Source: Anaerolineales bacterium
GTDB taxonomy: Bacteria; Chloroflexota; Anaerolineae; Anaerolineales; UBA11579
Direction: 5' to 3'
Assembly (NCBI GenBank): GCA_025808555.1
Contig: CP075526.1
Coordinates: forward strand, 1,592,712 to 1,656,711
DNA: 64,000 bases
Numbering within the stretch: position 1 is the first letter of the stretch; each line of letters starts with the position of its first letter. The notes beneath the pieces were generated by a model, which saw nothing but the letters and a program-made list of their open reading frames with translations, was not told the DNA's origin and did no database searches. Made by a program: the position numbers and the translations under genes. Positions 39,597-42,882 of the stretch are shown piece by piece.

Positions 39597-39640
39597 CGTC
39601 ATCCTTTCAACATCCCTGACACACGTCAGAACGCCGAAAA

Positions 39641-39668
39641 TTGTAACAGTCATGTGGGGGCTTATAAT
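39641..39668 (+). promoter_or_regulatory. Promoter of the GAF-ANTAR regulator
   Basis: TTGTAA (39641-39646), a 16-nt spacer, and TATAAT (39663-39668). The GTG start at 39677 is 8 nt after the -10 box and has no SD, so the mRNA is predicted to be leaderless. It is divergent from pepF. Confidence 0.75.
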
Positions 39669-39676
39669 CCGTCCTC

Positions 39677-40387
39677 GTGACGCAGGACGAACTCGTAAAA
39701 CTTGAAAAAGAGCTCGCTTTACTCTACCGAGTAACGCGTGACGTATTTCGCCTGGAATTGGACGAGGTACTCAGCGAGATCGTCACCGTGGCCGAGGAGG
39801 TCAGTGCCGCCGATTCGGTGCTGGTCTACGTTGTCTCCGGCAACGCCAGGGATCTGGTGCTGCGCGCCTCCAAAAACCCCCATCCCGCCCTCCTGCAAAA
39901 GGTCAGCCTGAAGCAGGGCGAGGGCATTACCGGCTGGGTCGCCAGCCAGCAGCAGCCGGTGGCGCTGGCCCAGGGCGCCGGGCAAGACCCGCGCTTCAAG
40001 TACTTCCGCAACCTGCCTGAAGACCGTTTTGAGGCCTTTCTCTCGGTACCCATTGTCGGCAAGCCTGGGGTGGTGGGCGTAATCAACGTTCAGCATCGCC
40101 AGCCGCACACTCACTCTGAGACCGAGATCAACCTGCTCGCCGCCGTCGGCCGCCTGGTCGGCGCCGCCGTGGAAAATGCCCTGCTGATCGAAGAAACCCT
40201 CGCCCTCAAAGAAGCTCTCGAGCTGCGCAAAGTGGTCGAGAAGGCCAAGGGCATCCTGATGAAGCGCCGCAATCTGGATGAAGAAGCTGCCTACAAGCTC
40301 ATCCAGCGCGAAAGCATGGATCGCCGTAAATCCCTCAAAGAGATCTGCGACGCCATCCTGTTGATGGACCAATTGGAGCCGATGTGA
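39677..40387 (+). CDS. GAF-ANTAR RNA-binding antitermination regulator
   Basis: A 236-residue protein. A short coiled N-terminus is followed by a GAF sensor domain at about 20-165 (DSVLVYVVSG..., GEGITGWVASQQQPVAL, FLSVPIVGKPGVVGVINVQHR). A connecting helix leads to an ANTAR domain at about 178-236 (LELRKVVEKAKGILMKRRNLDEEAAYKLIQRESM), with the family's three-helix pattern and conserved AKGILM and A.. residues. ANTAR proteins bind tandem hexaloop hairpins in leader RNAs and block intrinsic terminators. The ligand sensed by the GAF domain is unknown. A matching RNA lies in the glnA leader 1 kb downstream. Confidence 0.92.
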   Translation: MTQDELVKLEKELALLYRVTRDVFRLELDEVLSEIVTVAEEVSAADSVLVYVVSGNARDLVLRASKNPHPALLQKVSLKQGEGITGWVASQQQPVALAQGAGQDPRFKYFRNLPEDRFEAFLSVPIVGKPGVVGVINVQHRQPHTHSETEINLLAAVGRLVGAAVENALLIEETLALKEALELRKVVEKAKGILMKRRNLDEEAAYKLIQRESMDRRKSLKEICDAILLMDQLEPM

Positions 40388-40436
40388 GGCCCGAAGTCGA
40401 GAAAAAGCCAAAGAAGAAGCCCAGCAAGAATAACTG

Positions 40437-40673
40437 ATGGACGCCAACTGTCTGAACACTGTTGGTCTTGCGTTGGATATCGCAGGGGCTGTACTTTTGT
40501 TTAAATACGGTCTTCCATCAGACATCAACGCTACGGGGCATATTGGCATCGCAACTCAGAAGGTAGACCACGAAGGTATTAGGTTAGGGAAAATCTACAA
40601 ACGAAATTCCCGAATTGCTCTTGGTCTGCTGATTGTTGGGTTCTTTATTCAGGCTGTAAGCAACTACGTGTAA
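40437..40673 (+). CDS. Small membrane protein of unknown function
   Basis: 78 residues with two hydrophobic segments, at about 6-24 and 59-76, joined by a polar loop (HIGIATQKVDHEGIRLGKIYKRNS). No family recognised and no clear SD. The base composition is visibly lower in GC than its neighbours, shared with the next gene, hinting at acquired DNA. Confidence 0.6.
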   Translation: MDANCLNTVGLALDIAGAVLLFKYGLPSDINATGHIGIATQKVDHEGIRLGKIYKRNSRIALGLLIVGFFIQAVSNYV

Positions 40674-40740
40674 AGCAAACCCCTTCTTTGAGATTACTAG
40701 AAGTTGATCCTTTGACATTGCCAAGTACAGCAGTCGCCGA

Positions 40741-40774
40741 AAAAAGCGACTCGGAAACGAGTCGCTTTCGTTTA
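40741..40774 (+). terminator. Intrinsic terminator
   Basis: AAAGCGACTCG (40744-40754) and CGAGTCGCTTT (40759-40769) with a GAAA tetraloop, followed by CGTTT. It ends the transcript of the small membrane protein; the A-rich upstream side could also serve the minus strand. Confidence 0.85.
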
Positions 40775-40809
40775 CAATGCGATCGTTCACATTAGACTAG
40801 GAGAGCAAA

Positions 40810-41196
40810 ATGCCCACCAGACTTTGGACAGTTCTCTGCAAAGGGTTGGAAGTTCACCACGAAACTGCCACAGTATCATTACATAATGTGTTTTCAGCAG
40901 TTAGTGGCGATATAGGTGAAAATAGGGTAGCCAAGCTCGAATTATTTTCTATGGTCACCGCGTTCGGTGGCGAGCTAGGAGAGCAATTCACCTTCAACGC
41001 GTCCTTCTTGGACCCCAGCGGTAAACCGTACGGTCCCGTAGGCAGTGACATGAACATCACCATCCGCAGAATACCCGAAATCGTATCGGTTGACTTCGCA
41101 GACTTCCATTTTATGGAGTACGGGGTATTCGGAATCGAAATCAAACTTGACGGAATAACTGTACATGTCGTTCCTTTTTATGTTAAACCCATCTGA
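40810..41196 (+). CDS. Protein of unknown function, beta-rich single domain
   Basis: 128 residues, ATG 40810 with SD AGGAG. No signal peptide. The pattern (ATVSLHNVFSAVSG near the N-terminus, then alternating strands and DGITVHVVPFYVKP at the end) resembles a small DUF6941-like beta-sandwich family, but I am not sure. GC content is low, like the preceding gene, so the pair may be a transferred islet. It sits between the ANTAR regulator and glnA. Confidence 0.7.
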   Translation: MPTRLWTVLCKGLEVHHETATVSLHNVFSAVSGDIGENRVAKLELFSMVTAFGGELGEQFTFNASFLDPSGKPYGPVGSDMNITIRRIPEIVSVDFADFHFMEYGVFGIEIKLDGITVHVVPFYVKPI

Positions 41197-41302
41197 ATTA
41201 GCCATCTAAGCCCCATTTGGGCTTGCCAAGCACATAACTCCCACGAAGATTAGAGCTTTGCCCGCGTGCGTTTGCTAAGTACATAATCACCGCGCTTGCC
41301 TA

Positions 41303-41334
41303 TTGACAAGCGCCTAAAGTTTCCGTACTATAAT
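41303..41334 (+). promoter_or_regulatory. glnA: glnA promoter
   Basis: TTGACA (41303-41308) and TATAAT (41329-41334), spaced 20 nt; a shifted GACAAG (41305-41310) would give 18. The predicted start at about 41341 places the first ANTAR hairpin at the very 5' end of the transcript. Confidence 0.75.
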
Positions 41335-41340
41335 CTCTTA

Positions 41341-41421
41341 TTCGCAACGGCGCGGATAACTAAATACTAGGAAGACAATGGAGTCTCCCGAGTGTGTTCA
41401 ACACCTCGGGAGACTTTTTTT
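41341..41421 (+). promoter_or_regulatory. glnA: ANTAR dual-hexaloop antiterminator and overlapping terminator in the glnA leader
   Basis: Hairpin P1: TTCGC (41341-41345), loop AACGGC (41346-41351), GCGGA (41352-41356). Hairpin P2: GGAAGAC (41370-41376), loop AATGGA (41377-41382), GTCTCCC (41383-41389), with one A-C mismatch. Both loops have six bases with A at position 1 and G at position 4, the defining feature of ANTAR target RNAs. The linker is 13 nt. An intrinsic terminator uses AGTCTCCCGAG (41382-41392) with CTCGGGAGACT (41405-41415) plus seven T. P2 and the terminator share 41383-41389 and exclude each other, so regulator binding to P1-P2 should permit glnA transcription. Confidence 0.88.
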
Positions 41422-41445
41422 GTTTTCAATATCCAAGGAGCTTGA

Positions 41446-42882
41446 ATGGCACTGCCCGCGAACGTCGAGAAGTTGATCAAAGCCCACTCCCCCAAAATGG
41501 TAGACGTGCGTTTTACAGACCCGCTGGGGGTCTGGCAACATTGTTCCGTACCGATAGATGAGCTTGAAGGTGCCCTCAAGAGCGGCATCGGGTTTGATGG
41601 CTCCAGCATCAAAGGCTTCCAGCAGATCTATGACTCTGACCTGTTGCTCACCCTGCAGCCTGACAGCGCCCAGCTGGATCCCTTTTACCAGGCGCCGACA
41701 CTCACCTTCATCGCCACCATTCACGATCCGGAGCAGGGCAAGCGCTACAGCCGTGACCCGCGCTTCATTGCTGAGAAGGCCGAGGCCTTCCTGAAAGAAA
41801 GCGGCATCGCCGAGACCAGCTATTGGGGCCCTGAGGCCGAGTTCTTCCTATTCTCACACCTCTCGTACTCCATCGAGCCGCACAGCATGGGTTTCGACAT
41901 CGACAGCCCCGAAGCCAGCTGGAATACCGGCGCCCGCGAGGATATGACCAACCTCGGCTACCGCGTGCCCACCAAGGGCGGCTACTTCCCCGTCGCGCCG
42001 GTGGACACCCTGCAAGACGTGCGCAGCGAGATCGCCCTGACCCTGGATGCTCTCGGCGCCAAAGTGGAGATGCATCATCACGAGGTTGCCTCCGCCGGCC
42101 AGTGCGAGGTGGACTTGCGCTTTGACAGCCTGGTCTCCATGGCAGATAAGTTGCTCACCTACAAATATGTTGTGCGCAATGTCGCCAAGGCGCATGGCCT
42201 CACAGCCACCTTTATGCCCAAGCCGCTCTTTGGCGACAATGGTTCCGGCATGCATGTGCACAACAGCCTGTGGAGCGGCGGCAAGAATCTCTTCTTCGGC
42301 AAGGGCTCCTACGCCGAGCTCTCTGAGCTCGCCCTGTATTACATTGGCGGCATCCTCACCCATGTCGATAGCTTGCTCGCCTTCTGCGCCCCCACCACCA
42401 ACTCCTACCGTCGCCTGGTGCCGCACTACGAGGCGCCCGTCAATGTAGCCTTCTCCAAGCGCAATCGCAGCGCCATCGTGCGCATCCCCATGTATGCCAG
42501 CGGCGAGGAGAATGCCAAGGCCAAACGCATCGAGTTCCGCGCTCCGGACCCCACCGCCAACCCCTATCTCGCCTTTTCAGCCATCCTGATGGCCGGCCTG
42601 GATGGCATCAAGCGCAAGATCGACCCCACCAAGGCTGGCTACGGCCCGCTCGACAAGAACATCTGGGAGCTTGGCGCCGAAGAGAAGCAAGCCATCCGCA
42701 GTGTTCCCGGCAGCCTCAACGAAAGTGTCGCCGCCCTGGAGAAAGACCACGACTACCTGCTGGACGGTGGCGTCTTCACCGAAGATGTCCTCACCATGTG
42801 GAAGGACCTCAAGCAGAGCGAGATCCACGAGGTCGCGCTGCGCCCTTCTCCCTACGAATTCCACCTCTACTCAGCCATCTAG
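41446..42882 (+). CDS. glnA: Glutamine synthetase type I, without adenylylation tyrosine
   Basis: A 478-residue GSI that makes glutamine from glutamate, ammonia and ATP in a dodecamer. The Asp-50-type region is FDGSSIKGFQQIYDSDLLL, and the metal-ligand helix starts YWGPEAEFFLF. KGGYFPVAPVD, HHHEVASAGQCEVDLRF, GSGMHVHNSLW and the RNRSAIVRIP loop are all present. Length and insertions match GSI-beta. Where GSI-beta has the adenylylated Tyr (NLYDLPPEE), this protein has NIWELGAEE, so GlnE-type control should not work. Control appears to be by leader antitermination. SD AAGGAG at 41435-41440. Confidence 0.96.
   Translation: MALPANVEKLIKAHSPKMVDVRFTDPLGVWQHCSVPIDELEGALKSGIGFDGSSIKGFQQIYDSDLLLTLQPDSAQLDPFYQAPTLTFIATIHDPEQGKRYSRDPRFIAEKAEAFLKESGIAETSYWGPEAEFFLFSHLSYSIEPHSMGFDIDSPEASWNTGAREDMTNLGYRVPTKGGYFPVAPVDTLQDVRSEIALTLDALGAKVEMHHHEVASAGQCEVDLRFDSLVSMADKLLTYKYVVRNVAKAHGLTATFMPKPLFGDNGSGMHVHNSLWSGGKNLFFGKGSYAELSELALYYIGGILTHVDSLLAFCAPTTNSYRRLVPHYEAPVNVAFSKRNRSAIVRIPMYASGEENAKAKRIEFRAPDPTANPYLAFSAILMAGLDGIKRKIDPTKAGYGPLDKNIWELGAEEKQAIRSVPGSLNESVAALEKDHDYLLDGGVFTEDVLTMWKDLKQSEIHEVALRPSPYEFHLYSAI

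Follow-up and report, generated by a model that had tools for sequence, protein, structure and literature searches.

The closest described relatives of the locus analysed here are leader RNAs controlled by ANTAR proteins. In Enterococcus faecalis, the eut leaders recognized by EutV contain two hairpins whose hexaloops carry A at position 1 and G at position 4 (A1/G4), and the second hairpin (P2) overlaps an intrinsic terminator (PMC3369931; PMC8934654). The nasF and amiE leaders, controlled by NasR and AmiR, are likewise examples of dual-hexaloop antitermination of a nitrogen gene. The work that defined the ANTAR RNA motif reports it before many nitrogen genes, including those for glutamine synthesis, and the glutamine/glutamate synthase leaders that it lists belong to the same RNA class and also serve nitrogen assimilation (Ramesh 2012, PMC3369931). 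In Clostridium saccharobutylicum, the ANTAR protein NitR regulates glnA (Stutz 2007, cited in PMC6316151) and, by the citing paper's account, controls GS/GOGAT genes by antitermination under nitrogen limitation. The clostridial NitR and the 2012 survey thus provide precedents for the regulation of glnA by ANTAR proteins.

We analysed a stretch of Anaerolineales DNA (64 kb, hereafter the window) in which glnA is preceded by a leader of the same architecture (Table 1). On the strength of sequence comparisons, we consider it highly likely, with a probability of about 0.93, that this leader is an ANTAR-controlled transcription antiterminator acting on glnA. As in the eut leaders, two A1/G4 hexaloop hairpins are present and P2 overlaps the terminator; the 10 nt between the full stems lies within the 5-12 nt linker range of EutV/eut, and the residues through which EutV contacts RNA are mostly shared by the regulator encoded in the window. 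The two systems differ in that EutV receives its input through a phosphorylated receiver, whereas the input domain here is a GAF domain, and in that the target here is glnA, with the regulator gene beside its single detected target. NasR and AmiR also differ from the window system in their inputs (NIT or pseudo-receiver domains) and targets (nitrate assimilation or amidase). NitR comes from a different phylum, and its likeness to the window system lies in target and protein class as given by the paper that cites the original work.

Stewart and van Tilbeurgh (PMC3369936) name Actinobacteria, Bacteroidetes, Firmicutes and Proteobacteria and leave Chloroflexota and Patescibacteria unnamed, and as of 2012 no GAF-ANTAR protein had been characterized (PMC3369931). 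In the literature on 'GAF-ANTAR' we found passing mention only and no later characterized example, and titles and abstracts on ANTAR with Chloroflexi or Patescibacteria did not describe such leaders. Several features look new relative to these sources: a GAF-ANTAR protein with an assignable target, the range of ANTAR leaders in Chloroflexota and Patescibacteria, what appears to be a transfer between phyla, the presence of two deeply divergent GlnA lineages downstream of one type of leader, and an ANTAR-glnA system in a host without detectable PII or Amt. A GAF-ANTAR protein would thereby gain a clear, predicted RNA target, and ANTAR antitermination would extend to two groups whose gene regulation is little known. 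The system is also minimal (one regulator, one RNA, one gene) and could serve for studying how a signal passes from GAF to ANTAR.

Table 1 Features of the glnA regulatory region in the window (L054, the relative with 98% GlnA identity)
Feature	Positions	Strand	Parts	Basis
GAF-ANTAR regulator gene, GTG start codon, product of 236 aa	39677-40387	+	GAF, residues 27-166; ANTAR, residues 176-228	Pfam ANTAR and GAF
Insertion, ~0.9 kb, 46% GC, between regulator and leader	about 40381-41295			BLASTN against L054
Promoter TTGACA-N17-TACTAT	41303-41331	+	TTGACA 41303-41308; TACTAT 41326-41331	Read directly
P1 hairpin, 8 bp, hexaloop AACGGC (A1, G4)	41338-41359	+	core stem 41341-41345/41352-41356; full 8-bp stem 41338-41345/41352-41359; loop 41346-41351	Read directly, folding
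P2 antiterminator hairpin (predicted), hexaloop AATGGA (A1, G4)	41370-41389	+	stem 41370-41376/41383-41389; loop 41377-41382	Read directly, folding
Intrinsic terminator, U7	41382-41421	+	left arm 41382-41392, AGTCTCCCGAG; right arm 41405-41415, CTCGGGAGACT; U run 41415-41421	Stepwise folding
Ribosome binding site AAGGAG	41435-41440	+		Read directly; outside P2 and terminator
glnA, type I glutamine synthetase, 478 aa, gene under control (predicted)	41446-42882	+		TIGR00653, Gln-synt_C

A first-pass annotation of this DNA had described P1 with a 5-bp stem and P2 with seven stem positions and one mismatch, both with A1 and G4 in the loop, and had noted that the right arm of P2 is shared with a strong terminator. 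Direct reading and folding bore this out in full, and the stem of P1 could be extended to 8 bp. From position 41338, P1 reads UUAUUCGC-AACGGC-GCGGAUAA in RNA letters; after a ten-base linker (41360-41369), P2 reads GGAAGAC-AAUGGA-GUCUCCC, with an A-C mismatch, and is followed by GAGUGUGUUCAACACCUCGGGAGACUUUUUUU. The linker is inside the range of about 2-25 nt given for ANTAR RNAs (PMC8164766), and the leader has the features that define this class, namely two A1/G4 hexaloop hairpins with stems of at least 3 bp. Because the right arm of P2 is contained in the left arm of the terminator, the two structures are mutually exclusive. The fold of the whole leader had a z score of -6.4, with 0 of 200 shuffles equally stable. 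A scanner for this anatomy (P1 and P2 with A1/G4 hexaloops plus an overlapping terminator, both strands) found exactly one site in the window; 40 simulated windows matched to it in dinucleotide composition contained no such site.

Stepwise folding gave P1 at -8.2 kcal/mol once position 41360 was reached and P1 with P2 at -13.9 kcal/mol at 41389, after which the terminator displaced P2 between 41408 and 41414 (-31.1 kcal/mol); P2 would thus not last unaided, which is the behaviour anticipated for a default-off switch. The promoter boxes, which lie 17 bases apart, place the expected transcription start close to 41338, where the P1 stem begins, and, as the ribosome binding site lies outside the switch, control is expected to operate through termination and not through a block of translation. 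That position also argues against a riboswitch that binds a metabolite and against an attenuator governed by translation, as does the small size of the leader (just ~85 nt, with two small hairpins), although a leader-terminator layout is common to riboswitches and glutamine riboswitches exist (PMC6316151). An Rfam search of the leader returned no ANTAR family match and no relevant riboswitch match; its sole match was a microRNA model, mir-2755, over the terminator hairpin (41367-41430, 29.8 bits against a gathering threshold of 76), which we dismissed as chance. We regard a riboswitch or translational attenuator as scarcely credible here, and ANTAR-controlled antitermination as the reading to be preferred.

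The regulator gene was found at the coordinates first given for it, with matches to Pfam ANTAR (E = 2e-20, 72.7 bits against a cut-off of 27.3) and GAF_2 (E = 4e-16). It encodes the sole ANTAR protein that we found in the 2.24 Mb genome, as the single PF03861 match. The structure of EutV with RNA identifies the residues that touch the hexaloop (PMC8934654), and 8 of 11 of these are identical in the regulator in a gap-free alignment: EutV R142, K143, K147 and K149 correspond to R184, K185, K189 and K191, and E160, Y164, M172 and R175 to E202, Y206, M214 and R217. The remaining three positions differ (R168 to Q, N173 to D and R177 to S), although Rv1626 shares the Q at the first of them and the D at the second.

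In the model that fits these features, the leader hairpins and the stop signal are, very probably, an on/off switch operated by the neighbouring RNA-binding protein. Transcription would start at the foot of P1, and by default the nascent leader would fold P1, then briefly P2, then the stronger terminator, which captures the right arm of P2 and leaves glnA off. The active GAF-ANTAR protein would bind the hexaloops of P1 and P2 and keep P2 closed, allowing RNA polymerase to read through into glnA; activation would presumably occur under nitrogen limitation. Protein binding, read-through and the default-off state are proposed here by analogy with what is known of the family.

Among 60 relatives, six besides the window genome encode this GAF-ANTAR protein, in every case directly upstream of an orthologous glnA, and all seven of these Anaerolineales genomes have one P1-P2-terminator leader before glnA. 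The leaders of the genus repeatedly show a TTGACA box that is followed, 17-18 nt further on, by a TANNAT box. Genus members without this regulator (G001, G002, G004, G007 and G008) yielded no glnA match, and G001 had an ANTAR match below threshold only. A covariance model, R1, run on 400 genomes of the order matched exactly those seven, once each, in a sample in which 33 of 400 genomes encode any ANTAR protein above the cut-off. The leader RNA and this GAF-ANTAR protein co-occur exactly across the 400 sampled genomes. A second R1 match in the window's own genome (18.5 bits), considered as a sign of a wider regulon, was judged to be chance because the region resembles coding sequence on the opposite strand, which by eye we take to be RNase Z.

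We also scanned GTDB genomes with the regulator as query. Candidatus Gottesmanbacteria and Roizmanbacteria yielded relatives with 58-64% identity, whereas those from other Patescibacteria, Elusimicrobia and Acidobacteria were more distant; relatives were not found in viral contigs. At 15 Patescibacterial loci glnA lies downstream of the regulator, mostly at 140-510 nt and at 1.2-2 kb in L069 and L082, and at two Elusimicrobial loci it is nearby on the opposite strand. The leaders at these loci have two hexaloops and an overlapping terminator as in the window, except for L066 (Roizmanbacteria), in which P2 is clear and P1 was not found under a 4-bp rule. The pattern that would speak against an ANTAR switch, namely homologous glnA leaders that keep the terminator and lose the loops, was looked for, and the opposite was seen: all leaders of the genus keep P1 and P2, and all linked Patescibacterial and Elusimicrobial leaders keep P2, with P1 also kept outside L066.

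When 22 P1+P2 cores (21 distinct leaders) were aligned without gaps, 93.3% of cells were paired compared with a shuffled mean of 79.8%, the covariation score was 0.468 compared with 0.192, and 31 cells had changed on both sides compared with 9.4; for the latter two measures, none of 500 shuffles scored as high. Four of the five P1 core pairs had changes on both sides across the 21 distinct leaders, and the closing pairs of P2, GAC/GTC, were invariant in 21 of 21. G4 was kept in 22 of 22 P1 loops and 22 of 22 P2 loops, with some selection bias in the P1 figure because the loop was visible when P1 hairpins were picked by their stem and distance; when candidates were listed irrespective of loop sequence, the hexaloop hairpin closest to P2 on its upstream side usually had G4. 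Loop position 1 was mostly A, and a few leaders from Patescibacteria and Elusimicrobia had G there. In one Elusimicrobial leader (L071) we observed a third G4 hexaloop hairpin, GGTTCGC-GTTGAC-GCGGACC, between P1 and P2. Another locus (L096:4637-4695) has a P1/P2/terminator element (GGCATAC-AAAGTT-GTGTGCC; AGGAC-AAAGAC-GTCTT) about 300 nt upstream of a GAF-ANTAR gene, with an ORF of about 75 aa between them, and may possibly represent autoregulation of that gene.

Since the training set of R1 had included the window leader, we built an independent model, R2, from 14 Patescibacterial leaders alone, without Chloroflexota. With this leave-one-phylum-out model, the top match in the 2.24 Mb genome was the window leader (27.7 bits, a modest E-value of 0.003; next match, 16.0 bits), and all other Chloroflexota leaders were recovered. 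In the Gottesmanbacteria family, R1 matches outside the training set were found upstream of amt (L157) and three glnA genes (L159-L161). A further match in this family (L158:1501-1555, in G408) is a good P1/P2/terminator element (TTCGC-AATGAA-GCGAA; AGAC-AAGGGA-GTC), downstream of which we found no recognizable gene on the same strand.

These comparisons bear on the possibility that the leader is an ordinary intrinsic attenuator or promoter-proximal terminator, in which a pair of hairpins arose by chance and no ANTAR protein takes part. The terminator is strong by itself and would function without P1 and P2. However, the retention of G4 in every P1 and P2 loop while the P1 stems covary, the exact co-occurrence of RNA and regulator in 400 genomes, and the placement of held-out model matches on nitrogen genes all argue against an ordinary attenuator, which we consider very improbable. 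Covariation, the leave-one-phylum-out model and co-occurrence instead support the original interpretation of GAF-ANTAR antitermination of glnA, and its description as a complete circuit is fair in the anatomical sense.

The nature of the signal is a separate question. The best curated-family matches of the GAF domain were to PtsP (E = 5.6e-18) and NifA (E = 2.7e-10), although in each case the score fell far short of the whole-protein cut-off of the family, and its best PDB matches included PtsP GAF structures. The GAF domain of EI-Ntr (PtsP) serves to sense the glutamine/2-oxoglutarate ratio (PMC5024086), and the NifA GAF domain binds 2-oxoglutarate (PMC8219145). Given this resemblance, our leading guess, a tentative one by analogy, is that the GAF domain may directly sense glutamine or 2-oxoglutarate. 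A different case would be an ANTAR leader whose protein answers a non-nitrogen signal, for example redox through GAF; GAF ligands are diverse, and GAF-ANTAR proteins were uncharacterized as of 2012 (PMC3369931), but the targets across phyla are glnA and amt and the GAF domain is closest to the nitrogen-sensing PtsP and NifA models, making a non-nitrogen signal unlikely. In the window's own genome we did not detect PII (PF00543) or an ammonium transporter (PF00909), an absence that is not certain as the genome is 95% complete; control searches for PF00909 and PF00543 were positive in 14 and 13 of 14 genomes, respectively.

The GlnA of the window (TIGR00653, E = 1.7e-178; Gln-synt_C, E = 5e-126) stands apart from other Anaerolineales GlnA proteins, with at most 59% identity to them compared with 72% to that of a Gottesmanbacteria locus (L067). 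In quick trees made without bootstrap, it grouped with L067 (support 100) and then with L057 and L069 (99), and the regulators formed one clade of 19 (98) with the seven Chloroflexota rows as a single group (97). In most Gottesmanbacteria, a leader of this kind precedes a GlnA with only about 35% identity. The most straightforward interpretation of these findings would be that the cassette was transferred across phyla and that glnA was exchanged behind the leader, with the proviso that the Patescibacterial sequences are MAG contigs, in which binning error is possible for single cases. One may go further and speculate that GAF-ANTAR, leader and glnA together make up a self-sufficient and portable cassette for nitrogen control, passed between Gottesmanbacteria-like Patescibacteria and one Anaerolineales lineage and combined with two deeply different GlnAs, which would act as the main nitrogen-status sensor in hosts lacking PII and Amt, its GAF domain binding glutamine or 2-oxoglutarate directly; we hold this fuller picture to be possible and somewhat doubtful.

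The regulator had been described as lying 1 kb upstream of the leader, which is true of the window and does not hold as a trait of the circuit, the spacing being due to a recent insertion not seen in the closest relative. Against that locus (L054), only 39601-40380 and 41296-41500 align by BLASTN, and in L054 the two blocks are 25 nt apart. The inserted segment, low in GC compared with the window mean of 60%, contains two ORFs, one of them DUF6941-like (40810-41196, below cut-off) and the other small, as well as a hairpin near 40740-40772, and by this comparison is dispensable for the circuit. We considered the DUF6941-like ORF as a circuit part and rejected it because the closest relative lacks the insertion.

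R1 had no matches at the glnA loci of order-mates with receiver-ANTAR proteins, which led us to a separate class of hairpin, C1. Nine such genomes (G024, G025, G026, G037, G038, G039, G044, G045 and G050) share a single conserved hairpin, GGC-[CANGAM]-GCC, with a right arm that doubles as the left arm of a terminator (L009:657, L010:718, L011:1346, L012, L013:477, L014, L015:1344, L016 and L047:2032). It stands before glnA operons or, in the case of G038, also before a glutamine synthetase-like gene; the loop has C at position 1 and retains G4, and no hexaloop P1 was seen upstream. The C1 hairpins are a candidate single-hexaloop ANTAR leader class, with weak covariation in the stem. A C1 model, R3, matched 15 of 400 genomes of the order, and an ANTAR protein was detected in three of the six newly matched genomes. 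Outside the training set, and apart from some matches left unassigned, R3 matches fell before two ammonium transporter genes (L177 and L179) and two glnA genes (L171 and L173).
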